From Clostridia bacterium (lineage in GTDB: Bacteria; Bacillota; Clostridia; Christensenellales; Borkfalkiaceae), in the NCBI GenBank assembly GCA_017465865.1, contig JAFTVF010000006.1, forward strand, positions 62,001 through 126,000: 64,000 bases of DNA. Reading direction: 5' to 3'. Of this stretch, positions 23,762-41,915 are shown one piece after another. Below the pieces are notes generated by a model that saw only the letters and a list, made by a program, of their open reading frames with translations, was not told where the DNA came from and made no database searches. The translations under genes and the position numbers were made by a program. How positions within the stretch are numbered: position 1 is the first letter of the stretch; every line of letters starts with the position of its first letter.

Positions 23762-25272
23762 TGCTTTCCGCCCTCCGCAACTTTCAAAGTCAAACGGATC
23801 TTGTCAGGGGGAATGATCAGGCTGACGAGATCGTTTTCATTCCACAGATCCTCGCAGGCGAGTACGTAATCTTCCTCGTTTTCCGTACGCACGATATACC
23901 GATAATATTCACTCTTATAAATCAGCGAAATAATATGCCCCTGCGCGCCGCCGTCTTCAAGATTATCGCTCATGGTGATATCGTGCAAACCGACCTCGAC
24001 GTTGACTTCCGTATCCGTCAGATCGAGCTTTTCGCCCTTGGCGGTAATCAGGTAACCCTCTTCGTCCAAATGACTGCCCGGATACAGCTGGGTAACGTCG
24101 CATTCAAATTCTCCGTCGCCGAATTCCACGGTATTGCGCTTCGTAATAACGCCCGAGAATTTATTCACGCGGAATTTCTTTTTCATAACGTGGATACCGT
24201 CGGGGGCAACGGTAAGCCCTACCCGATCGCCTACGTCGGGGGCAACGGTGCTTTGGATCTCGATTTCGTATCTTCCGCATTGTACTAAGATTTGATAATG
24301 GATACCCTTGAAAATAACCGAAGTAACCTTGCCTTTCAGCATTCCGTCGTCGGGCGGGGTGATCTTGACGTCTTCGGGACGTACGACCACGTCCACGGGT
24401 TCGTCCTTTTCAAAACCGCCGTCGAGGCACTCAAACGCCTTACCGCAGAACCGTACCTGTCCGTCTTTGGGCATAACGCCCGAGAAAATATTACTCTCGC
24501 CGATGAAGTCCGCAACAAACGTGTTTTTCGGTTCGTTATAGATCATTTCGGGCGTGCCGATCTGTTGGATCGCGCCGTCCGCCATAACCACGATCGTGTC
24601 GGACATGGTAAGCGCTTCTTCCTGATCGTGCGTTACGTAAATGAACGTGATCCCGAGCCGTTTGTGCATGGCTTTGAGTTCAAGCTGCATTTCTTTGCGC
24701 ATTTTAAGATCGAGCGCGCCGAGCGGCTCGTCCAAGAGCAAAATTTCAGGCTCGTTGACGATGGCGCGGGCAATCGCGATACGCTGCTGCTGACCGCCCG
24801 AAAGGGTGGAGATACTGCGTTTTTCAAAACCCGTAAGATCGACGATTTCAAGGGCTTTTCTTACTTTTTCCGCAATGACCTCTTTGGGTAATTTTTTATA
24901 TTTGATCTTTTCTTTTCCGTCTTTACTGATACAGGTCGTTTCCACGCGTTTGAGCTTTAACCCGAACGCCACGTTTTCAAAGACGTTGAGATGGGGGAAG
25001 AGCGCGTATTTTTGGAACACCGTATTGACGGGACGGCGGTTGGGGGGCAACGCGCTGATATCCTCGCCGTTAAAGAGGATTTTCCCGCTCGTAGGCATTT
25101 CAAAACCCGCGATCATACGCAACGTAGTGGTTTTTCCGCAGCCCGACGGACCGAGAAAGGTAATAAACTCTCCCTTGCGTACGTAAAAATTGATATTTTC
25201 CACGACGGACACTCCGTCGAATTCCTTGCAAACGTCGATCAGCTCGATAATATGTTTGGTGTTGTTTTGCAT
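23758..25272 (-). CDS. potA: Polyamine ABC transporter ATPase PotA with extended C-terminus (504 aa)
   Basis: The ATPase has Walker A LGPSGCGKTTTLRMIAG, Q-loop FQKYALFPHLNVFENV, signature LSGGQQQRIAIARA and Walker B ILLLDEPLGALD. A TOBE domain follows (about 275-350). Typical PotA ends near residue 370. Here a further 130 residues form what looks like a second TOBE-like unit, ending in VSLIIPPDKIRL. An 18-residue Lys-rich insertion (ETTCISKDGKEKIKYKKL) lies in the helical subdomain. It drives polyamine import from the cytoplasmic face. The extra C-terminal domain may bind a ligand or regulator (inference). Confidence 0.9.
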   Translation of the reverse strand: MQNNTKHIIELIDVCKEFDGVSVVENINFYVRKGEFITFLGPSGCGKTTTLRMIAGFEMPTSGKILFNGEDISALPPNRRPVNTVFQKYALFPHLNVFENVAFGLKLKRVETTCISKDGKEKIKYKKLPKEVIAEKVRKALEIVDLTGFEKRSISTLSGGQQQRIAIARAIVNEPEILLLDEPLGALDLKMRKEMQLELKAMHKRLGITFIYVTHDQEEALTMSDTIVVMADGAIQQIGTPEMIYNEPKNTFVADFIGESNIFSGVMPKDGQVRFCGKAFECLDGGFEKDEPVDVVVRPEDVKITPPDDGMLKGKVTSVIFKGIHYQILVQCGRYEIEIQSTVAPDVGDRVGLTVAPDGIHVMKKKFRVNKFSGVITKRNTVEFGDGEFECDVTQLYPGSHLDEEGYLITAKGEKLDLTDTEVNVEVGLHDITMSDNLEDGGAQGHIISLIYKSEYYRYIVRTENEEDYVLACEDLWNENDLVSLIIPPDKIRLTLKVAEGGKQ

Positions 25273-31449: not shown

Positions 31450-31510
31450 ACATTAGTTCGACTTTTTTTAACATAATTCCCTTGCTTGCTTGGGCAATAT
31501 ATTATAATAT
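31450..31510 (+). promoter_or_regulatory. PfkB operon promoter with AraC-type direct repeats (site 1)
   Basis: Half-sites ACATTAGTTCG (31450-31460) and ACATAATTCCC (31471-31481) start exactly 21 bp apart. The second abuts a weak -35 TTGCTT (31482-31487). A 17-base spacer leads to TAATAT (31505-31510), overlapping a TATAAT at 31503. The same layout occurs at 35645 and 39790. Confidence 0.65.
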
Positions 31511-31591
31511 ATTGGTGTGAAAAGCCGTGGCTTTTGCAGTATGACAGGTAAGAGTTATTGTCGATAAAAATATAAAACCAAAGGGAAAGGT

Positions 31592-32632
31592 ATGACAGGA
31601 AAATTATTAGATACTGATATGCGGCAAGGAATTACGATAGCCGGTAGCTTTGTCGTCGATATTGTGAAATCAATTGACGTTTATCCTAAAATAGGTGAAT
31701 TGGCAAATTTACAAGAAATTACTCGGGCGATTGGCGGTTGCGTGCCGAATACGGCAACGGACCTTGCTGTTATAGACGCGGATTTGAAAGTGTCAGCCGT
31801 TGGAACGATCGGTAACGATGAAAACGGGGAATTTTTGTTGGAGAATTTACGCGCTAAAAACATAGAAACGGATCAAATTCAAATCGTCGATAAAATGCCG
31901 ACAAGCTTTTGCGACGTAATGAGTGTTCCAAGCGGTGAACGTACTTTTTTTAGTCATCGCGGAGCGAACGCTGTATTTTCTCCCGCAGACGTACGCATAG
32001 ACGAGTTGAATTGTCGAATATTTCATTTAGGCTATCTTCTTTTGTTGAATAAATTCGATGAAGAGGACAAAGAATTTGGTACTGCCGCAGCTCGGTTTTT
32101 GCGCGACGTTCAGTTGCGTGGAATAAAAACCTCGATAGACGTGGTAAGTAGTAGCGATATGGAGGAATTTCAACGGAAGATTAAGCCTGTCTTGCGTTAC
32201 GTCGATTACGTAATCGTGAACGAGTTGGAATGTTGTAATATTTGGGGTCTTGCATGCAGAAAGGAAAACGGTGAAATAGACGTAAAAAATATCCGAAACG
32301 CAATGCAAAGATGTCTTGATTACGGCGTGAGAGAAAAGGTGATCGTTCATGCAAAGGAAGGAGCGTTTTGTATGAACAAAAACGGGTCGTTTACTTCGAT
32401 GGGCTCGTTGATTATTCCTAAGAACTTGATTAAAGGAAGCGTAGGCGCGGGCGACGCATTTTGTGCGGGAAGCTTATATGCTATTTATAATGATTATTCC
32501 GATAAAGAAATTCTTGAATTTGCATCGGGTGCGGCGGCTTGTAGTTTATTTGAAGCCAACGCTGTAGATGGGATGAGAGAAAAAAAAGAAATAGAAAAAA
32601 TAATAACTCGCTTTGAACGGCGCGTGAACTAA
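31592..32632 (+). CDS. PfkB-family carbohydrate kinase (346 aa)
   Basis: A ribokinase-like fold. The N-terminal IAGSFVVDIV and GGCVPNTATDLAVI form the substrate site. The C-terminal KGSVGAGDAFCAGSLYAI contains the GAGDAF anion hole with the catalytic Asp. It transfers phosphate from ATP to a sugar hydroxyl. It is the first gene of a plus-strand set with a lyxose/mannose isomerase, a ROK kinase, a SIS protein and an SGNH hydrolase. It probably phosphorylates the ketose made by the isomerase (inference). The ATG at 31592 lies behind AAAGGGAAAGG; an ATG at 31619 is possible but has no ribosome site. Base composition is clearly more AT-rich than in dcw genes. Confidence 0.88.
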   Translation: MTGKLLDTDMRQGITIAGSFVVDIVKSIDVYPKIGELANLQEITRAIGGCVPNTATDLAVIDADLKVSAVGTIGNDENGEFLLENLRAKNIETDQIQIVDKMPTSFCDVMSVPSGERTFFSHRGANAVFSPADVRIDELNCRIFHLGYLLLLNKFDEEDKEFGTAAARFLRDVQLRGIKTSIDVVSSSDMEEFQRKIKPVLRYVDYVIVNELECCNIWGLACRKENGEIDVKNIRNAMQRCLDYGVREKVIVHAKEGAFCMNKNGSFTSMGSLIIPKNLIKGSVGAGDAFCAGSLYAIYNDYSDKEILEFASGAAACSLFEANAVDGMREKKEIEKIITRFERRVN

Positions 32633-32646
32633 GGAGAAGAAAGGAA

Positions 32647-33333
32647 ATGAAAAGAAGTGAAATAAATAAAGCCTTAAAAGAGTTGGAAAGTGCATGTCAA
32701 AAATATTCTTGCTTTCTGCCTCCGTTTTGTCATTTTACACCGCAAGAGTGGGAAGAAAAGGGACATGAATATGATGAAGTGCGTGATTGCTTGCTTGGTT
32801 GGGATATAACCGATTACGGTTTGGGAAATTTCGATAAAGCAGGTTTTTCATTGATTACGTTGCGTAACGGTAATTTGAAGCAAAAGGACAAGTATCCCAA
32901 GCCGTACGCAGAGAAATTACTGTACTTAAAAGAAGGACAATATGCTTGGAATCATTTTCATTGGTATAAACAAGAAGATATTATCAATCGCGGCGGCGGC
33001 AATGTGCTGTTAAGAGTTTATAATTCGCTTCCTAACGAAGAAATGGACTACGTAACGGACGTTACGATCTATTCAGACGGCAGAAAATATACCGTGCCCG
33101 CAGGAACTCAAATTCGTTTATCGCCGGGGGAAAGCCTTACCGTAACGCGTGGGATGTATCACGATTTTGAGGTGGAAAAGGGTACGGGCGCAGTGCTTTT
33201 AGGCGAAGTAAGTCAATGTAACGATGACGAGTGCGATAACCGCATGCTGCCGCCCGTGGGGAGATTTCCTGCAATAGAAGAGGATGAGCCTGCTTACAGA
33301 TTGCTTTGCTTCGAATATCCAAAAGCTAAATAA
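32647..33333 (+). CDS. D-lyxose/D-mannose isomerase-type cupin (228 aa)
   Basis: The length and sequence fit the D-lyxose ketol-isomerase family (DUF1498). The landmarks are FCHFTPQEWEEKGHEYDEVRD, LGWDITDYGLGNF, the metal site HFHWYKQEDIINRGGG, and the later RGMYHDFEVEKG with the second metal His. Members interconvert D-lyxose and D-xylulose or D-mannose and D-fructose using a divalent metal. With a PfkB kinase upstream and a ROK kinase downstream it suggests mannose- or lyxose-type sugar entry to central metabolism. AAGGAG and AAAGGA sites precede the ATG. Confidence 0.85.
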   Translation: MKRSEINKALKELESACQKYSCFLPPFCHFTPQEWEEKGHEYDEVRDCLLGWDITDYGLGNFDKAGFSLITLRNGNLKQKDKYPKPYAEKLLYLKEGQYAWNHFHWYKQEDIINRGGGNVLLRVYNSLPNEEMDYVTDVTIYSDGRKYTVPAGTQIRLSPGESLTVTRGMYHDFEVEKGTGAVLLGEVSQCNDDECDNRMLPPVGRFPAIEEDEPAYRLLCFEYPKAK

Positions 33334-33361
33334 TCTAATTGATGAATTAAAAAATAGGTAT

Positions 33362-34285
33362 ATGATGTATTGTATAGGCTTTGATATAGGCGGAACAAAA
33401 TGTGCAGTATCACTTGGAGAATTTAAGAATCAAGAAATAAAACTTCTTGATAGATATCAGGTATGGACAAAGGATTCTCCAACAGATACCTTTGACGAGC
33501 TTGCGCCCGTTATTAATAAATGGTCGAAAAAATTCGGGGCGAAGAGAGTTGGAGTGGCTTGTGGCGGTCCGTTGGATTCAAAAAACGGCATCATTATTTC
33601 TACGCCCAATCTTTCTCGAGATTGGCACAATTTTGAAATTGTTACCTATATTAAATCGCGATTCGGATTAAACGCAAAATTGGAAAATGATGCGAATGCA
33701 TCTGCGATAGCCGAATGGAAATTCGGGGCGGGAAAAGGTACAAAGAATTTGGTTTTTATGACGTTTGGGTCGGGGCTTGGAGCAGGCTTGATTTTGGACG
33801 GGAAATTGTATTCGGGAACGAACGGAAACGCGGGGGAAATCGGTCATATTCGATTAAAAAAGGATGGTCCTGTCGGTTATAATAAGATGGGCTCGGCGGA
33901 AGGTTTTTGTAGTGGAAACGGAATTAAGAGGTTGGCGCAAATTCGCGCGGAAGAACGAAGCGTTTCACTTGACAGCAGTATAACGACGAAAATTATTTTT
34001 GAGAAAGCGAAGCAAGGCAACGAATTTTATTTGTCCGTTGTTAGAGAGAGCGCGGAAAATTTCGCGAAAGTTATAAGTATCTTGATTGATTTATTTAATC
34101 CCGAAGCCATTATAACAGGGGGAGTGTTTATGCGAAATTACGATTTATTTATGGAGATTATCGAGCCGATTGTTGAAAAGGAAGCCTTGACGGATGCTTA
34201 TAAAGTTTGTAAGATTTTGCCTGCGAAGATAGGTGAAAATATAGGCGATTACGCGGCTTTGGCAATTGCAATCTTGGGGGATTGA
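33362..34285 (+). CDS. ROK-family sugar kinase (307 aa)
   Basis: FDIGGTKCAV is the phosphate loop, ENDANASAIAEW carries the catalytic Asp, FGSGLGAGLI and GTNGNAGEIGH follow, and VFMRNYD-type C-terminal features close the fold. The zinc-binding CxCGxxGCxE of many ROK proteins is absent; that stretch reads NKMGSAEGFCSGNGIK. ROK kinases phosphorylate glucose, fructose, mannose, ManNAc or GlcNAc. In view of the NanA and AGE genes nearby, ManNAc kinase (NanK-like) is one option, fructokinase or mannokinase another. The start at 33362 is after the previous stop; an upstream extension would overlap the isomerase gene and has no family match. Confidence 0.85.
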   Translation: MMYCIGFDIGGTKCAVSLGEFKNQEIKLLDRYQVWTKDSPTDTFDELAPVINKWSKKFGAKRVGVACGGPLDSKNGIIISTPNLSRDWHNFEIVTYIKSRFGLNAKLENDANASAIAEWKFGAGKGTKNLVFMTFGSGLGAGLILDGKLYSGTNGNAGEIGHIRLKKDGPVGYNKMGSAEGFCSGNGIKRLAQIRAEERSVSLDSSITTKIIFEKAKQGNEFYLSVVRESAENFAKVISILIDLFNPEAIITGGVFMRNYDLFMEIIEPIVEKEALTDAYKVCKILPAKIGENIGDYAALAIAILGD

Positions 34286-34286
34286 A

Positions 34287-34925
34287 ATGAAAAAAACAAC
34301 AAAAAAAATATATGATGAATTGTTTGAAAGATACGCTTCGCTAAACGGGATCAAAAAAAATATATTGAATGCTTTTGAGATGATAAAAACAACGTATAAA
34401 AACGGAGGGACGCTTTATTGTGCGGGGAATGGTGGGAGTGCTTCAGATAGCGAGCATATCGTAGGCGAGCTTTTGAAATCGTTCAAGAAAAAACGCGCAA
34501 TAGACAAGGAAACGGCGAATATTTTATTAAGTTACGGCGTAGAGGGAGAATATTTAGTAAATAAATTAGAGGGCTCGTTGCCTGCCGTTTCATTAATTTC
34601 GCAAACGGGGATTTTAACGGCGTTTGCCAACGATAAATCTTGGGATATGGCAATTGCACAACAGCTTTACGGTTTAGGTAAACAAGGAGATTGCTTATTA
34701 GTGCTTTCCACTTCCGGGAATTCAAAAAATTGTATATACGCAGTGCTGCTTGCAAAAGCAAAGGGTATAAAATCGATAGTACTGACGGGCATAGGTGGCG
34801 GTAAATTAAAAGAGATTTGCGACGAAAATATTTGTATTCCTGAATCGGAAACATATAAGATTCAAGAATTGCAATTGCCTATTTATCATTGTCTTTGTGC
34901 TATGATAGAGGAAGATTTTTTCTAA
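34287..34925 (+). CDS. SIS-domain protein, GmhA/phosphoheptose isomerase-like (212 aa)
   Basis: One SIS domain. CAGNGGSASDSEHIVGELLKSF matches the GmhA active-site loop (AGNGGSAADAQH in the classic family). LVLSTSGNSKNCIYA is the phosphosugar-binding loop. The Cys, Ser and His of the first motif are kept. GmhA converts sedoheptulose 7-phosphate to heptose phosphate. In a sugar catabolic context such proteins may act on other phosphosugars. It begins one base after the ROK stop; the ATG at 34287 follows a GGGGG site. No heptose pathway genes (GmhB, HldE) are in the window, so true heptose synthesis is not supported here. Confidence 0.8.
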   Translation: MKKTTKKIYDELFERYASLNGIKKNILNAFEMIKTTYKNGGTLYCAGNGGSASDSEHIVGELLKSFKKKRAIDKETANILLSYGVEGEYLVNKLEGSLPAVSLISQTGILTAFANDKSWDMAIAQQLYGLGKQGDCLLVLSTSGNSKNCIYAVLLAKAKGIKSIVLTGIGGGKLKEICDENICIPESETYKIQELQLPIYHCLCAMIEEDFF

Positions 34926-34963
34926 ATCGTATTTAACATAAGAAAATCTGGGTAATCAAGAAA

Positions 34964-35587
34964 ATGGAAAAGAAAAACGTCATTATCTTCGGGGATAGTT
35001 ATTCAACGTTTAAGGGGCATATACCCGATTATTACGATACGTATTATCCCTGTTTAGACGTATGCTCGGTAGAGGAAACTTGGTGGAAATCATTCGTTTC
35101 AAAATGCAATTATCATTTAATTCAAAATAATAGTTGGAGCGGCTCGACGATTGGTTATACAGGTTATAATCATGCAGATTGTTCAACCTCGTCTTCTTTT
35201 ATTTTTCGATATAAGCAATTAAAGGAGCAGGGTGTTTTTGAGAAAGATAGGGTAGACGTTATTCTTGTTTTCGGTGGAACGAATGATAGTTGGGCGAATG
35301 CCGAGCTTGGCAATATAAAATTTTCAGATTGGACGGAAGAAGATTTTTTTAAGGTTCTTCCTTCGATTTGCTATTTTGCGTATATGCTAAAAACGGATTT
35401 TCCTTATGCAAAAATAATATTTATCATCAATACGGATATCAAAGAGGAAATCCAAAACGCCATAGAATATGCCGCTCAATATTATTCCTTGCAAAGCGTT
35501 AGATTGCAGGATATCGATAAGCAGAAGGACCATCCAACAAAAAAGGGAATGAAAGAAATCTGCGATCAGCTATTAAAAGTCGTTTAA
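34964..35587 (+). CDS. SGNH/GDSL-family hydrolase (207 aa)
   Basis: Block I IIFGDSYSTFKG carries the nucleophilic Ser. WSGSTIGYTGY gives the Gly block, VFGGTNDSW is block III with the Asn, and KDHPTKKGM is block V with the Asp-His pair. Such enzymes are esterases that often remove acetyl groups from glycans. No signal peptide is present, so it acts in the cytoplasm. In this island it could deacetylate an acetylated sugar such as an O-acetyl sialic acid (inference). It is the last gene of the five-gene unit. Confidence 0.85.
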   Translation: MEKKNVIIFGDSYSTFKGHIPDYYDTYYPCLDVCSVEETWWKSFVSKCNYHLIQNNSWSGSTIGYTGYNHADCSTSSSFIFRYKQLKEQGVFEKDRVDVILVFGGTNDSWANAELGNIKFSDWTEEDFFKVLPSICYFAYMLKTDFPYAKIIFIINTDIKEEIQNAIEYAAQYYSLQSVRLQDIDKQKDHPTKKGMKEICDQLLKVV

Positions 35588-35644
35588 GGGTTATAAACGA
35601 GCGAAATAGCGGATAACGGCAAAAAACTTGGAAGAGAATAAATC

Positions 35645-35705
35645 ACATAAATACAAATTTTATAAACATAATTCCCTTTTCTATCGTGTGGAATTATTGT
35701 AAAAT
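35645..35705 (+). promoter_or_regulatory. FucI-like isomerase promoter with AraC-type direct repeats (site 2)
   Basis: ACATAAATACA (35645-35655) and ACATAATTCCC (35666-35676) start 21 bp apart. The second is identical to its counterpart at 31471. A poor -35 TTTTCT (35677-35682), a 17-base spacer and TAAAAT (35700-35705) follow. Confidence 0.65.
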
Positions 35706-35736
35706 GATATAAAATAATTAGGTGAGGATAAAAAAT

Positions 35737-37062
35737 ATGAAAGTTACCTTTGCTTTATACTTTGGCAATCGCGGTTTTTTCCCCGGCGAATCGATAGCGA
35801 CGGCTCGGAAAGAAATGATAGAGGCTGTGGAAAAGGCGGGCTTTAACTATCTTTGTATGGACGAGAGCCTGACCCGTTACGGCGCGGTGGAAACGATCAA
35901 AGAAGGCGCGCGTTTTGCGGAATTTTTAGAGGCGCACAAAGGCGAATACGACGGTATCATTTTATGTATGCCTAATTTCAGCGACGAAAACGGCGCGTCC
36001 GTTGCGCTTAAAGACGTAAACGTGCCTGTGCTTGTACAGGCATATCCCGACGAGCTGGATAAAATGGACTTTTCACACCGCCGCGACGCGTTTTGCGGAA
36101 AAATCGCTATGTGCAACGTGCTTCGGCAGTTAAAAATTCCGTATACGTTGACGACGAAAATTTGCGAATCGCCGTTAAGCAAAGAATTTGCGGAAGACTT
36201 GCGTTTATTTGCAGGTACTTGCCGTGCGGTAAAGGGTTTGAAACAATTCAATATCGGTGCGATCGGTGCGCGAACGACGGCGTTCAAAACAGTACGTTGC
36301 GACGAAATTGCAATGGCGAACCATCGAGTAAATATTGAAACCATCGATTTAAGTTACGTATTCCGTAAAATGGACGAAGTGAATGCGGATAAGCTGGCAC
36401 AAAAGAAAGAACAATACGCAAGCTTGTCCGATTTCGGAAAATACCCTCCTGAAAAGTTGGATAATATCGCAAGACTTGGCGTGGTAATCGACGAGATTAT
36501 CGAGGACTTCGATTTACAAGCGATAGCGATCCGTTGTTGGGACGAATTGCAAAAGAAATACGGCATAGCGCCTTGCCTAATTCTCGGTGAACTGAACGAG
36601 CGTGGAATAGTAGCGGCGTGCGAATTAGACGTAAACAACGCAGTTATGATGCGTGCGTTATACCTTGCGGCAGACTGTCCCGTTATGCTTTTGGACGTGA
36701 ACAACAACTACGGCGATGCGGACGATAAATGTATATTCTTCCATTGCGGACCTGTGCCTCAAACGCTTATGGCAGAGCGCGGACATATTGAAGAACACCT
36801 TATGTTCAAAAAGAGCTACGGCGAGGGCTCGGGCGTAGGCATCAATAAGGGTAAACTGATTACGGGCGACGTAACAATCGGTAGCTTCAAAACGGAAAAC
36901 GGAAAAATGTGCTCGTTCGTAGCAGAGGGCAAGCTCACGGACGATTACGTAGGCGACGGGTTCTTCGGTTGCGGTACGGTATTCCAAAAAGAAAACGTGG
37001 AGAATACCGTATGTTTGCGGAGGGCGGTATCAGCACGTATCAAAGTCGTCCTTACTGCGTAG
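35737..37062 (+). CDS. L-fucose/arabinose isomerase-like protein with a probably truncated C-terminus (441 aa)
   Basis: The N-terminal part (KVTFALYFGNRGFFPGESI, then YDGIILCMPNFSDENG) and the middle (AIRCWDELQKKYGIAPCLILGELN) match the sugar isomerase family related to FucI/AraA. VMLLDVNNNYGDADDKCIFFHCGPVP contains metal and substrate residues. The family sequence GDGFFGCGTVFQKENVENT (residues about 406-424) normally leads into some 35 more conserved residues. Here it runs instead into CLRRAVSARIKVVLTA and a stop, while the next frame continues as an AraC regulator. A deletion joining the two genes near 37008 is inferred. The ATG at 35737 follows AGGTGAGG. Activity may be lost. Confidence 0.75.
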   Translation: MKVTFALYFGNRGFFPGESIATARKEMIEAVEKAGFNYLCMDESLTRYGAVETIKEGARFAEFLEAHKGEYDGIILCMPNFSDENGASVALKDVNVPVLVQAYPDELDKMDFSHRRDAFCGKIAMCNVLRQLKIPYTLTTKICESPLSKEFAEDLRLFAGTCRAVKGLKQFNIGAIGARTTAFKTVRCDEIAMANHRVNIETIDLSYVFRKMDEVNADKLAQKKEQYASLSDFGKYPPEKLDNIARLGVVIDEIIEDFDLQAIAIRCWDELQKKYGIAPCLILGELNERGIVAACELDVNNAVMMRALYLAADCPVMLLDVNNNYGDADDKCIFFHCGPVPQTLMAERGHIEEHLMFKKSYGEGSGVGINKGKLITGDVTIGSFKTENGKMCSFVAEGKLTDDYVGDGFFGCGTVFQKENVENTVCLRRAVSARIKVVLTA

Positions 37063-37553
37063 AAATGACAGAGGAGATTGCTTTTTACGTGAAGCAACTA
37101 CGCATTGCGCTTCCGCGTATCGAGGCAGAGGGCTTGGAAAAGATGAAAGCGCTGCTGACTTTGATTTTATGGTCGGTCGGGTGGTTTGCCTCTGCGGGTA
37201 CTTACAATAAAGGGGCTTATCAAATTACACGAAACGAATATATTTTCAAGATCAACGAATGTATTGAAAGGTCGCTTGTGGAAAAGGTTACGCTGTCAAC
37301 GGTGGCGAAGGCATTATTTTTAAGCGAAAAACAAGTCGCGCGGATCTTGAAAAAAGATTTTGGCTGCACGCTTTCGGGGTTAATTCAAGAAAAGAAACTC
37401 TCGGCTGCCGCGATCCTTTTACGAAATACCGAAAAAACCGTAGCGGAGATTGCAGAAGAGTTGAATTTTCAAACGGAGAGCTATTTTTTCGTGCTGTTCA
37501 AAAAGAAATACGGCTGTACGCCGCTCGGTTACCGTAAACGCAAAAAAGAGTAA
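37011..37553 (+). CDS. AraC-family transcriptional regulator, short form (180 aa)
   Basis: The C-terminal 100 residues hold the two AraC helix-turn-helix units. The first is around VTLSTVAKALFLSEKQVARILKKDF (helices cited by ends) and the second is AEIAEELNFQTESYFFVLFKKKYGCTPLGYR. Upstream, about 75 residues (MFAEGGISTYQSRPYC onward) look like the end of a longer sensor domain. Typical relatives have about 280-300 aa, so some 100 N-terminal residues are missing. The ATG at 37011 follows GGAG by eight bases and lies within the last codons of the isomerase gene. It is the natural candidate for binding the 21-bp repeats at 31450, 35645 and 39790 (inference). Confidence 0.78.
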   Translation: MFAEGGISTYQSRPYCVEMTEEIAFYVKQLRIALPRIEAEGLEKMKALLTLILWSVGWFASAGTYNKGAYQITRNEYIFKINECIERSLVEKVTLSTVAKALFLSEKQVARILKKDFGCTLSGLIQEKKLSAAAILLRNTEKTVAEIAEELNFQTESYFFVLFKKKYGCTPLGYRKRKKE

Positions 37554-37555
37554 AA

Positions 37556-37591
37556 AAAGAAGCCTAAGATTGAAAAATCTTAGGCTTCTTT
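37556..37591. terminator. Bidirectional terminator between araC-type gene and AGE gene
   Basis: A perfect 16-bp stem (37556-37571 with 37576-37591) around a GAAA loop. The arms begin and end in A and T runs, so it can act for both convergent transcripts. Confidence 0.9.
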
Positions 37592-37596
37592 CAGGT

Positions 37597-38775
37597 TTAG
37601 TCCTGTAAAAGCAAACAGCATTTTGCGAGCATCCGCATTGTATGGAAAGGTCCTTTATACGTATGTCCTTTGCATGGCGGCATAGTGGGCTTACCGTCTC
37701 TGCGGAGATACCCAAACCATTCTCCGTATTCGGGGTCGGAGAATTTATCAAAGGAATATTCCGTTATTTTTTCAAACCAATCGGAATAATAGCAATCGTT
37801 CGTTTGCTTATAAAGCATCAACGAGGCGATCATTGCTTCGTTATGCGGCCACCAAAGTTTCATGTCGTGTTCGTATGCTTCGACGGGGTTGCCGTTAACG
37901 TCTTTGAAATACAAGATTCCGCCGTATTCCAAGTCCCAACCAAATTCAATAGCGTTACGGAATATTTTTTCCGCAAACGAGATCAATTTTTCGTCGTTAC
38001 GATAAATCCCTTCTTCAAGCAAGAACCAAGAACACTCAATGTCGTGTCCGGGGTTGACAATTCTGCTTTCGGAAACGTCGAAAATAAAACTTCCGTCAAC
38101 ACCTACGCTTTCGAGCAGGGCTTGCTTCTCCTCGCAATAATGAGACTGAATGTCTTGAATGAACTTGTCGATTTCACGGGTGTAATAGTCGGAGTTTTCT
38201 TTGTCTGCACCGCGTAAGATCGAGGCGACGTTTAATAAAATCATGGGTTGGCTAAGCCCTTTTAACGCACGCGTTTCCGCATAGCTTTTCGGGGTAATTT
38301 TATAAGGGTCGGTTTGGGGATCATCGTAAATCCCGCAGACGAATTTGAATTTATCGCGTGCGATCTGCAAACGGGATTTATCGCCCGTAGCCATAGCGTA
38401 TTCTGCGTTTGCGATAATATAAAACGTTTCGCTAAACCAATAACGGCGTTTACGCAGGGGCTTTCCGTCGCGCGTTACGGTAAAAAACATTCTCCCGTCG
38501 GTATCAATGCAATGGTTGTCTAAAAACTCTAAACAGCTTTTCGCGATTTTTAAGAAATCTTCGTTTTTTTCAATATTGTTGTACAGATAAGAAAAGGTCC
38601 AAGCCGCCCGTCCTTGCATCCAAACGCTTTTATCGGTGGAATAGACTTTACCTTTGCGGTCAAGGCAATTCAAAACGCCGCCGTATTGTTCGTCAAATCC
38701 GTTGTTTATCCAAAACGGAACGCAGCTTTCCAAAAGTTCTTTTTTGAATTTTTCAAGATAAGATACTGCGTTCAT
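37597..38775 (-). CDS. N-acylglucosamine 2-epimerase (AGE) family protein (392 aa)
   Basis: An (alpha/alpha)6 barrel protein. LESCVPFWINNGFDEQYGGVLNCLDRKGK is at the start, MQGRAAWTFSYL and KRRYWFSETFYIIANAEYA follow, then NPGHDIECSWFLLEEG and the catalytic-His region LWWPHNEAMIA. AGE enzymes interconvert ManNAc and GlcNAc; other members epimerise mannobiose or free aldoses. Its start overlaps the NanA-like stop by one base (TAATG), so the two are one operon. That pairing supports ManNAc conversion after sialic acid cleavage (inference). Confidence 0.85.
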   Translation of the reverse strand: MNAVSYLEKFKKELLESCVPFWINNGFDEQYGGVLNCLDRKGKVYSTDKSVWMQGRAAWTFSYLYNNIEKNEDFLKIAKSCLEFLDNHCIDTDGRMFFTVTRDGKPLRKRRYWFSETFYIIANAEYAMATGDKSRLQIARDKFKFVCGIYDDPQTDPYKITPKSYAETRALKGLSQPMILLNVASILRGADKENSDYYTREIDKFIQDIQSHYCEEKQALLESVGVDGSFIFDVSESRIVNPGHDIECSWFLLEEGIYRNDEKLISFAEKIFRNAIEFGWDLEYGGILYFKDVNGNPVEAYEHDMKLWWPHNEAMIASLMLYKQTNDCYYSDWFEKITEYSFDKFSDPEYGEWFGYLRRDGKPTMPPCKGHTYKGPFHTMRMLAKCCLLLQD

Positions 38776-39659
38776 TATTCTTTCTCCACAAACGGCATAA
38801 TTTTTTGCGTTATCAATAATTTTTCGCTGTCCGTAAGTTTCTTAAAGGGCTTGCGGCAGTCCCCGAATTCAAAGCCAAGCTGGTTTAACACTTCTTTTTC
38901 GCCCGCCATTACGCCAACTTCGCAAAGTACGGCGATGATTTCGTTGATTTGCGTTTGCAATGCCTGTGCTTCGGCTATTTTGTTGGCAGAGAAAAGGCTT
39001 TGCAGCTTAATAAATTTTTCTGCCATGAAATTGAAAGTGCTTCCGATTGCGCCGTCTGCACCCATAATAAGCCCCGCAAGCATCATCTCGTCGAAGCCGT
39101 TATAGAAAACCTTATCGGGATGCGCGCTGGTGAAACGCTCTAAGGCAAAATAGTCGTTAGAGGTATGCTTTACACCGATAAAGCGGTCGTCTTTTAAGAA
39201 TTCATTCAAGTTGTCTACCGATAAATTTACCCCCGAAAAGCTGGGAATATTATAAATAATCATAGGCAAGGATACTGCATTGACGATATCAAAATAATAA
39301 TCCTTAACTTCCTTAAATGAAAATTTATAATAATAGGGTGCAACGGACGAAATAGCGTCATAGCCAAGCGTTTCGGCGTATTTTGCAAGCTCTATGGCTT
39401 GATGAGTAGCAATACAGCCGACCTGTGCGATCAATTTACAGCGGTTGCCGACTACCTCTTTCACAAGTTTCATAACTTGCTTGCGTTCTTCAAAGGAAAG
39501 AAGAAAAGCCTCGCCTGTGCTACCGGTTACGTAAAAGCCGCTTACGCCTTTTTTTATGTTGTACTCGATTAATCGGGTTAAAGCGGCTTCATTGATTTCG
39601 TTTTGTTTTGTAAAAGGGGTGAGCAGTGCGGGATAAATTCCGCTAAACGGTTTGGTCAT
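38775..39659 (-). CDS. N-acetylneuraminate lyase-like (DHDPS/NanA family) (294 aa)
   Basis: A TIM-barrel class I aldolase. YVTGSTGEAFLLS holds the carboxylate-binding GSTGE (46-50), IIYNIPSFSG gives Tyr136 and IGVKHTSNDYF gives the Schiff-base Lys164. These match Tyr137 and Lys165 of E. coli NanA. The GSTGEAFLLS form favours NanA over DapA (usually GTTGES). It cleaves sialic acid to ManNAc and pyruvate. Neighbours AGE, ROK kinase and SGNH hydrolase fit a sialic acid route, but no sialidase or sialic acid transporter is present in the window. AGGAG lies upstream of the ATG. Confidence 0.82.
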   Translation of the reverse strand: MTKPFSGIYPALLTPFTKQNEINEAALTRLIEYNIKKGVSGFYVTGSTGEAFLLSFEERKQVMKLVKEVVGNRCKLIAQVGCIATHQAIELAKYAETLGYDAISSVAPYYYKFSFKEVKDYYFDIVNAVSLPMIIYNIPSFSGVNLSVDNLNEFLKDDRFIGVKHTSNDYFALERFTSAHPDKVFYNGFDEMMLAGLIMGADGAIGSTFNFMAEKFIKLQSLFSANKIAEAQALQTQINEIIAVLCEVGVMAGEKEVLNQLGFEFGDCRKPFKKLTDSEKLLITQKIMPFVEKE

Positions 39660-39687
39660 ATAAAATACTCCTTTAATTTTTTACTTA

Positions 39688-39716
39688 ATTATACAATAAA
39701 TGAAAGTGTTTTTCAA
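39688..39716 (-). promoter_or_regulatory. Promoter of the NanA-AGE operon
   Basis: On the minus strand there is TTGAAA (39716-39711), 17 bases and TATAAT (39693-39688). Confidence 0.75.
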
Positions 39717-39728
39717 TAGCGAAAAACG

Positions 39729-39763
39729 ACTTTAATTTTTGCAATAGGTCCTAAAATTAAAGT
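39729..39763. repeat. 11-bp inverted repeat between divergent promoters, candidate operator
   Basis: ACTTTAATTTT (39729-39739) and AAAATTAAAGT (39753-39763) are perfect inverted arms around 13 bases. They lie just upstream of the NanA -35 and between it and the divergent glycosidase promoter. No coding sequence overlaps. Confidence 0.55.
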
Positions 39764-39789
39764 TTTTGCAGAGCGGAAATATTCATTTC

Positions 39790-39850
39790 ACAAAACGACG
39801 AAAATATGTCACATTATTCAATTGCCTTTTTGTTTTTCGCGTGATAACAT
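39790..39850 (+). promoter_or_regulatory. Glycosidase promoter with AraC-type direct repeats (site 3)
   Basis: ACAAAACGACG (39790-39800) and ACATTATTCAA (39811-39821) start 21 bp apart. The -35 TTGCCT (39822-39827) abuts the second. A 17-base spacer leads to TAACAT (39845-39850), with an extended TGA before it. It has the same geometry as sites 1 and 2. Confidence 0.6.
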
Positions 39851-39887: not shown

Positions 39888-41915
39888 ATGGAAAAATCGA
39901 AGTGGTATAAAAAAGCGTATCGTAGAAATTTGGTGGATATTCATATTGCGGATTGGAACGATGAATTTATGGAAAAATTCGACGCGGACGTTTATTATGA
40001 AAATATGAAACGCGCGCACGTGCAATCACCGATGATTTATTTACAATCGCACACGGGAATTAGCTATTATCCCTCTCCGTCCGGTTATACGCACAAGTAT
40101 TTTAGAAAGCATCCCCGCGCTATGAACGAATTGATTGATAAATGTCAAGCAGGGGGAATGAAAGTAGTTGCGTATTATAGCTTGATTTTTAATAATTGGG
40201 CAGCAGAAAAATACCCGCATTGGCAAATCCGCTATGCCGACGGCAGCGTTTGGGGCGATCACGGACAAAGATACGGCTTGTGTTGTCCGAATAACCACGA
40301 ATACCGTACGTTTTTAGTGGAGCAAATGAAAGAGATCGGCGAGCAATTCCCTAATCTTGACGGAATATTCTTCGATATGCCGTACTGGGAGGTGGTCTGT
40401 CATTGCGATGCGTGTAAAGCCCGTTGGAAAAAAGAAGTTGGCGGCGACTTGCCGACGGCTATTGATTGGGCGGACGAGCGTTGGAGATTGTTTGTAAAAA
40501 AACGGCAAGAATGGATGGCGGAATTTGCGAAATATGCAGAAAGTACGGCAAAGCGTTTTTTGCCTGAAACAACGGTTGAATTAAATTTTGCGGCGGTAGT
40601 GTCTTGCGATTGGTTGGCAGGCTCGACGGAGGGGATCAACGAAGCCTGCGAATTTACAGGCGGCGATTTATACGGCGATCTGTACGATCACTCTTTCACT
40701 TGTAAATATTATTACGAAATTACAAAAAATCAGCCTTTCGAATACATGACTTGCCGTTTTAATAAACGCCTGCGTGAGCATACGATTACAAAGCCCGAGC
40801 TGGAATTAGAGGCGGACGTTATGCTGGCGGCTTGCCATCACGGCGCGACGTTGATTATTGACGCCATTGATCCAAGCGGTGAAATGGACGGTAGAGTGTA
40901 CGACCGTCTGGGGAACGTATTCGCAAAAACGTTGCCCTACGAGCAATATATGGATAAAGGCGTGTTAGACGCAAACGTTGCGGTTTATTTTGACAGCACG
41001 ACACAATTTTCTTCCGACGGAAAACCTTATAATAGGGAGTGTGCATTAGCGTCGGCTCGAACGTTGATTGAAAATCATATTCCGTTTAGGGAAATTGCTA
41101 ACGGGGCTATGAACGGACTCGACCGTTACGATTTGATTATTGCTCCCGCACTTGAAACGTTTGGAAATCCTGAGATCCTGAAACTGATTGACTATGTAAA
41201 AAATGGCGGCAAATTATATCTTTCAGGGAAATCGGACGCAAGACTGATCAAGGAATTCTTCGGGGCTGAAATTATAGGGGAGACCTACGGGGACACGACG
41301 TATCCGCATATTTATAAAGGCTACGACGAGGTTCAAGCGTACGTTTCGCCGATCGCCAAAGACTATAAAGAAATTTTTTGGGATTTTAATGATAAGTATC
41401 CTTTGCCGATTATTTATAAGTTGCCCATTATGTCGGGCTTTAACGGAGAAGTAAAAGCAAAAATTACCTTACCTTATACAGATCCTGACAACAATACGAT
41501 TTTTGCATCCTTGCACTCGAATCCCCCCGGAATTGCTACGGAGCATCCTGCTATTTTGGAGTGTAATTACGGAAAAGGCAAGGTGATTTGGAGCGCTGCG
41601 AATTTAGAATACGATGCAAGAACGAATTTCAAAGATATTTTTGCTTCGATAGTGAAAAAAGAGGTTTCGCCTCGGTTTACAATGGAGGCAAGTAAATACG
41701 TGGAAATTATTGTGTTTAAGGATGGCGATGATTTCTATATCAATTTGTTTGACCTGAATTTTGCATTTGATTTAGTAAAACGCGAATTTGCTATTACCGT
41801 TGGGAATAATTATAAAGCGATTGAGCTTGGTAGCAATAGTCAGCTGTCTGTTGTAGGCGGAGTTTTGAAAGGCAACTTTGAAAAATATATTTGGCTGAAA
41901 CTTGAAAAAATATAA
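39888..41915 (+). CDS. Glycoside hydrolase, hypothetical GH6/beta-galactosidase-trimerisation type (675 aa)
   Basis: The N-terminal TIM barrel has GGMKVVAYYSLIFNNWAAEKYP, then LDGIFFDMPYWEVVCHCDACKARW, where the FFD Asp and the CHCDAC motif are typical of PF14871-type (hypothetical glycosyl hydrolase 6) proteins. The segment YDLIIAPALETFGNPEILKLIDYVKNGGKLYLSG is a beta-galactosidase trimerisation-like domain. No signal peptide, so it is cytoplasmic. GH29-like fucosidase activity is possible given the FucI-like isomerase, but the sequence does not decide this. The ATG at 39888 follows TTGGAG; an upstream in-frame start at 39822 lies inside the promoter and is rejected. Confidence 0.78.
   Translation: MEKSKWYKKAYRRNLVDIHIADWNDEFMEKFDADVYYENMKRAHVQSPMIYLQSHTGISYYPSPSGYTHKYFRKHPRAMNELIDKCQAGGMKVVAYYSLIFNNWAAEKYPHWQIRYADGSVWGDHGQRYGLCCPNNHEYRTFLVEQMKEIGEQFPNLDGIFFDMPYWEVVCHCDACKARWKKEVGGDLPTAIDWADERWRLFVKKRQEWMAEFAKYAESTAKRFLPETTVELNFAAVVSCDWLAGSTEGINEACEFTGGDLYGDLYDHSFTCKYYYEITKNQPFEYMTCRFNKRLREHTITKPELELEADVMLAACHHGATLIIDAIDPSGEMDGRVYDRLGNVFAKTLPYEQYMDKGVLDANVAVYFDSTTQFSSDGKPYNRECALASARTLIENHIPFREIANGAMNGLDRYDLIIAPALETFGNPEILKLIDYVKNGGKLYLSGKSDARLIKEFFGAEIIGETYGDTTYPHIYKGYDEVQAYVSPIAKDYKEIFWDFNDKYPLPIIYKLPIMSGFNGEVKAKITLPYTDPDNNTIFASLHSNPPGIATEHPAILECNYGKGKVIWSAANLEYDARTNFKDIFASIVKKEVSPRFTMEASKYVEIIVFKDGDDFYINLFDLNFAFDLVKREFAITVGNNYKAIELGSNSQLSVVGGVLKGNFEKYIWLKLEKI

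Follow-up and report, generated by a model that had tools for sequence, protein, structure and literature searches.

Within a 64,000-nucleotide stretch of the genome of a Clostridia bacterium (contig JAFTVF010000006.1 of assembly GCA_017465865.1; hereafter the window), three sugar units, namely an operon starting with a PfkB-family kinase gene (site 1), a sugar isomerase gene (site 2) and a GHL6 glycosidase gene (site 3), are each preceded by two direct half-sites that start 21 bp apart, of which the proximal copy directly touches a -35 box (Table 1). The sites, their common register and their excess over chance were observed directly, and we consider it reasonably probable that they represent operators of one AraC-type activator, the regulator being a protein other than the product of the AraC gene fragment at 37011-37553 of the same island. 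We infer that a single protein occupies all three sites, that it is of the AraC type and that it activates transcription.

Architecture of the paired sites

A base-by-base check re-found the half-site pairs described for this region in an earlier note, including the 21-bp spacing, the contact with the -35 box and the -10 box after 17 bp. The 11-mer reported there as identical at sites 1 and 2, ACATAATTCCC, forms the proximal half-site of both, and exact copies occur in the window only at these two places. At site 1, an alternative -10 box (TATAAT at 31503) lies at a spacing of 15. The half-sites follow the consensus ACATWATTC, with the distal copy being looser (ACAWWANNNC), while the -35 boxes are weak and match 4/6, 3/6 and 4/6 consensus bases at sites 1, 2 and 3. 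Thus, two hallmarks of an AraC-type class II site, direct half-sites with a 21-bp period and a proximal copy touching a weak -35 box (3/3), were found.

Comparison of the three sites in pairs gave the highest identity for the proximal half-site (11, 8 and 8 of 11 positions) and the -10 box (5/6 for each pair), whereas agreement was less in the distal half-site (7, 6 and 7 of 11) and low in the 17-bp spacer (6, 5 and 3 of 17); between the half-sites, sites 1 and 2 agree at 7/10 bases. As identity resides in the half-sites and the -10 box and is low in the spacer, recent copying of a promoter appears unlikely. A promoter duplication as the origin of the trio was likewise rejected, since the 17-bp spacers differ.

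Excess over chance and searches in related genomes

For the alignment test, the three 160-bp upstream regions were aligned without gaps and with the register left free, and the best three-way alignment reproduced the register given in the earlier note. Using information-weighted scoring over 40 columns, the trio reached 72.8, compared with a maximum of 61.5 among dinucleotide shuffles (0/1000 as high) and of 67.7 among all 680 triples that can be formed from 17 further upstream regions of the window (0/680); over 65 columns, again 0/1000 shuffles and 0/680 other triples reached the trio score. As the trio pattern was taken from the trio itself, only this alignment and a leave-one-out analysis escape circularity, the latter being the cleanest test. 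With a matrix covering half-sites and -35 box (38 bp), the left-out site ranked first among approximately 128,000 window positions in 3/3 cases, and extension of the matrix to the -10 box (61 bp) gave rank 1 in 3/3 cases once more. The 11-mer alone is nothing special, with 17 window matches at up to 2 mismatches versus 17.8 expected; it is the composite of half-sites and promoter that exceeds chance.

Searches of the organism's own genome (1.42 Mb on 19 contigs, 73% complete) with the trio pattern returned three matches with 0 mismatches, which are the trio, none with 1 mismatch and 8 with 2, the reversed-pattern control giving 9. ACATWATTC alone occurs 17 times, compared with 8 for the reversed control. 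Of the 14 occurrences that do not belong to the trio, a single one (L129) carries a near-consensus -10 box, TATAAC, at 17 bp and has no ACA-type distal copy. Inspection by eye of the surroundings of the other AraC genes in this genome revealed no trio-like site with fewer than 3 mismatches. Upstream of one such gene (L124 / L133:9347-9394, minus strand), ACTATTTTC lies 21 bp before ACATAATTC, with no -10 box at 17 bp.

An alternative explanation, which we regard as improbable, would be that AT-rich promoters with common -10 and -35 patterns resemble one another by chance. Several observations lend it weight and count against a common operator. The trio consists of only three sites, found by eye-reading of 64 kb, and the trio matrix is built on these three sites only. 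Site 3 contributes the weakest member with its distal half-site, ACAAAACGACG, and leave-one-out ranks with half-sites alone were 1, 1 and 8, the eighth place being that of site 3. With information-weighted scoring over 30 columns, 0/1000 shuffles but 4/680 other triples reached the trio, and with unweighted scoring over 40 columns 0/600 shuffles and 1/600 other triples did so. Across 300 other genomes of the family, a stricter, longer pattern with 1 mismatch yielded 11 matches, equal to the 11 of the reversed control, and none of these 11 precedes a gene recognized as a homolog of the island; the sole family match with 0 mismatches (L098) lies 5' of a peptidase-like gene and has its -10 box at spacing 16. 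In addition, the trio pattern is not conserved in relatives: among 72 related loci (31 isomerase, 2 pfkB-ortholog and 7 GHL6-ortholog loci, 5 further loci of congeners and 27 loci of island AraC relatives), it was found in none with 0 or 1 mismatches and in 3 with 2 mismatches, and no ortholog retains the sites. Chance is opposed by the fact that no shuffle and no other promoter triple equalled the trio over 40 or 65 columns, and by the first rank of each left-out site.

According to the earlier note, orthologous islands devoid of the repeats would expose the sites as chance matches. Taken literally, this is what the 72 loci display; we do not take it as a refutation, as these loci are not syntenic with the island and their gene order differs too. 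Because gene order has also changed and the statistics oppose chance, we read the missing sites as pointing to a local regulon, and a loss of sites along with a changed context is also what a local regulon would show. With no match below 2 mismatches in the 72 related loci, the regulon, if real, is therefore local.

The island AraC gene and the nanA promoter

The AraC gene of the island, which the earlier note had proposed as the regulator of all three promoters, proved to be a 3' fragment. Its product spans positions 2-80 of the 80 positions of HTH_18 (66.7 bits, cut-off 33.6), and hence has the double helix-turn-helix, and covers positions 117-292 of a 293-position subfamily model, the N-terminal sensor domain being absent; full-length relatives comprise 280-306 amino acids. 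Eight of these (L134-L140 and L167) are approximately 33-39% identical over the fragment and have similar recognition helices. A motif first spotted by eye in these eight loci, AAAAACTNNAAAAATNRGACAT, occurs with up to 4 mismatches near 8/8 relatives, and in 7/8 its ACAT is located 32 or 33 bp before a -35 box that is followed by a -10 box at 17 bp. Model searches yielded 19 further subfamily loci, 5 of which carry this nan-type element with at most 4 mismatches and in register; 14 do not, including L197 with 5 mismatches and a spacing of 18.

A matrix was then assembled from 14 sites in promoters of relatives, none of them from the window. It ranked 39767-39746 on the minus strand, within the nanA/epimerase promoter, first in the window with 22.3 bits, the next place scoring 17.2; the corresponding values were 19.9 versus 14.3 with another background and 20.6 versus 17.7 when the matrix was limited to the first eight sites. 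The score of the nanA site was reached in 2/200 shuffles of the 64 kb and in 0/5000 shuffles of the intergenic region, and its distance to the -35 box equals the register of the relatives. With a tolerance of 3 mismatches, the exact motif of the relatives has no match in the window, the nanA site differing from it at 4 positions; in the organism's own genome this search gave 9 matches versus 4 for the control, and no match was accompanied by a convincing promoter. A nan-type assignment of the island AraC fits, because its relatives adjoin sialidase-like (BNR) genes in 2/8 cases and a NanA-family gene in 1/8.

As a by-product, these data provide a predicted element, AAAAACTNNAAAAATCGGACAT, with its ACAT 32-33 bp before the -35 box, for an AraC subfamily whose genes may be located near sialidase-like (BNR) or NanA-type genes; this conserved element was noted at 12/27 loci of relatives and at 39746-39767 (minus strand) of the window. 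No earlier description of it turned up in a limited literature search on sialic-acid AraC regulators, which is weak evidence, and priority is not claimed. A 10-bp inverted repeat, CTTTAATTTT / AAAATTAAAG, at 39735-39767 (minus strand) overlaps the predicted AraC site 5' of nanA.

The same matrix makes it unlikely that the island AraC gene governs the three promoters: in register, it placed the distal half-sites of sites 1, 2 and 3 at ranks 1181, 16711 and 16838 and the proximal half-sites at 24863, 2087 and 860, so that no half-site of the trio ranks better than 860th, whereas the nanA promoter came first. Moreover, the encoded protein has no sensor domain, and its gene may be a remnant or result from an assembly joint. 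The proposal draws on the location of the gene within the same 10-kb region as the trio and on the relatives' sites, which end with GGACAT 32-33 bp before the -35 box, where the distal ACA of the trio lies at 32 bp; if a slip of 2 bases is allowed, the proximal copy of site 3 climbs to the 23rd or 27th place. In addition, L167 alone among the relatives has a promoter with two ACATs at a distance of 21 bp (the second followed, 2 bases after the nonamer, by TTGTTT and, after 17 bp, by TATATT), which keeps this assignment alive at a low probability. From the AraC-type regulon of the earlier note, the shared direct repeat and the weak -35 boxes at three promoters are thus retained, while the island gene is given up as their regulator.

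Proposed mechanism and candidate regulators

We propose that an AraC-type dimer would bind the two direct half-sites from one side of the DNA, with two helical turns between them, and that its proximal subunit would contact RNA polymerase at the weak -35 box. The PfkB/lyxose-isomerase/ROK/SIS/hydrolase operon, the sugar isomerase and the GHL6 glycosidase would then be turned on together. That a common repressor, or some other protein bound to the direct repeats, blocks the promoters at the -35 box seems very unlikely to us; a proximal half-site adjoining the -35 box could let a repressor occlude it, but weak -35 boxes would suit an activator better. As regulator of the three sites, it is more likely that another AraC-type protein acts, or one whose gene is absent from the incomplete assembly, or one that was lost at the isomerase/araC junction. 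The organism's own genome holds 15 HTH_18 matches, one being the fragment and 14 being others.

A recent rewiring in this species, to which we assign a low probability, would mean that three sugar units with unrelated controls elsewhere have newly come under one 21-bp direct-repeat element, and that the resident nan-type AraC, after losing its sensor domain, may have turned into a signal-independent activator of the nanA operon. In two congeners, the PfkB kinase is fused to HTH_3 and its gene sits behind a promoter unlike that of the window; the isomerase is accompanied in several relatives by a divergent PocR-type AraC gene; and the glycosidase apparently lies within operons, as GHL6 orthologs start close 3' of another open frame in most cases (judged by eye). 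If true, the three sites would define a regulon of three promoters in a lineage known solely through metagenomes, and a case of demonstrably changed operators with the genes kept.

Comparison with known direct-repeat systems

Escherichia coli AraC occupies at araI1-I2 two direct half-sites of approximately 17 bp, 21 bp apart, beside a weak -35 box. The trio has the same layout, with half-sites conserved over approximately 9-11 bp; the likeness shown is one of layout. Direct repeats of 21 or 22 bp, as in the trio, also accompany PocR-type AraC regulators of this lineage, where they stand at the promoters of homologous genes; the half-site of these repeats resembles CYATWTTTT, whereas that of the trio is ACATWATTC, and no PocR-type gene lies beside the window isomerase. 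Such repeat pairs were found in 5 of approximately 19 distinct regions (L013, L014, L111 (= L038), L114 and L115), where they sit between the AraC gene and a divergent isomerase or kinase gene; the PocR domain was confirmed for L111 and L114, and the search pattern for the repeats was designed after some of these regions had been viewed.

The 21-bp direct repeat of AraC type is a known layout, to which the trio adds a further case, and it corresponds to the AraC-family motif layout described in PMC3870299. The AraC-family rhamnose regulators of Bacillales, Bacteroides and Enterococcus groups described there likewise govern a local sugar regulon of few operons; their half-site sequence and their genes differ from those of the trio.

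The same 21-bp period would be generated by a LytTR-type response regulator on 9-bp repeats with a 12-bp spacer, an explanation that we consider highly improbable. Its geometry equals that of the trio, and in PMC2766830 the LytTR regulators SilA and AgrA are likewise associated with direct repeats of 21-bp period 5' of the promoter. However, the LytTR domain PF04397 gave 0 matches in the organism's own genome (73% complete), with 5/14 control genomes being positive, and the half-site of the trio is unlike the LytTR consensus. A signal-peptide system was not noticed in the vicinity, although no search was aimed at one.

Gene content of the island

The features of the island are compiled in Table 1.

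Table 1 Coordinates of half-sites, promoters and genes in the island (window numbering)
Feature	Position	Strand	Basis or remark
Site 1 distal half-site ACATTAGTTCG	31450..31460	+	coordinate check, alignment, leave-one-out
Site 1 proximal half-site ACATAATTCCC, abuts -35	31471..31481	+	coordinate check, alignment, leave-one-out
Site 1 promoter	31482..31510	+	-35 TTGCTT at 31482, 17 bp, TAATAT at 31505; consensus match only
PfkB-family sugar kinase, first gene of operon 1	31592..32632	+	without the N-terminal HTH_3 of two congener orthologs
D-lyxose isomerase family protein	32647..33333	+	
ROK-family kinase	33366..34285	+	start codon picked by eye
SIS-domain (GmhA-like) protein	34287..34925	+	start codon picked by eye
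GDSL-like hydrolase	34964..35587	+	
Site 2 distal half-site ACATAAATACA	35645..35655	+	coordinate check, alignment, leave-one-out
Site 2 proximal half-site ACATAATTCCC, abuts -35	35666..35676	+	coordinate check, alignment, leave-one-out
Site 2 promoter	35677..35705	+	-35 TTTTCT at 35677, 17 bp, -10 TAAAAT at 35700; consensus match only
Fucose-isomerase-like sugar isomerase, second unit	35737..37062	+	3' end broken, Fucose_iso_C domain absent
3' fragment of AraC-family regulator gene	37011..37553	+	HTH_18 complete, sensor domain absent
N-acylglucosamine 2-epimerase family protein	37597..38775	-	
N-acetylneuraminate lyase (NanA)	38775..39659	-	above NCBIfam cut-off of NF003164
nanA promoter	39688..39716	-	-35 TTGAAA 39716-39711, 17 bp, -10 TATAAT 39693-39688
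Predicted site for the subfamily of the island AraC, AAAAACTTTAATTTTAGGACCT	39746..39767	-	33 bp (ACCT to TTGAAA) before nanA -35
Site 3 distal half-site ACAAAACGACG	39790..39800	+	coordinate check, alignment, leave-one-out
Site 3 proximal half-site ACATTATTCAA, abuts -35	39811..39821	+	coordinate check, alignment, leave-one-out
Site 3 promoter	39822..39850	+	-35 TTGCCT at 39822, 17 bp, -10 TAACAT at 39845; consensus match only
GHL6 / GH42-trimerisation-domain glycoside hydrolase, third unit	39888..41915	+	

The PfkB-family kinases of the two congeners (L155:2337-3551 and L159:6228-7439; 404 and 403 amino acids) carry HTH_3 at the N-terminus and represent regulator-kinase fusions. The window isomerase gave no Pfam match and shows a distant likeness to sulfoquinovose isomerase, its 93.9 bits lying far below the model cut-off of 700. 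Its homology ends near 37003 and the araC 3' part begins at approximately 37045; window positions 37003-37045 therefore mark a joint at which an isomerase lacking its C-terminal domain meets an araC gene devoid of its 5' part; this joint arose either by deletion or as an assembly artefact. Related isomerases close with a Fucose_iso_C domain (L158), and in four loci (L012, L014, L111 and L158; Pfam-tested for L158) a TIM-barrel gene lies 3' of the related isomerase.

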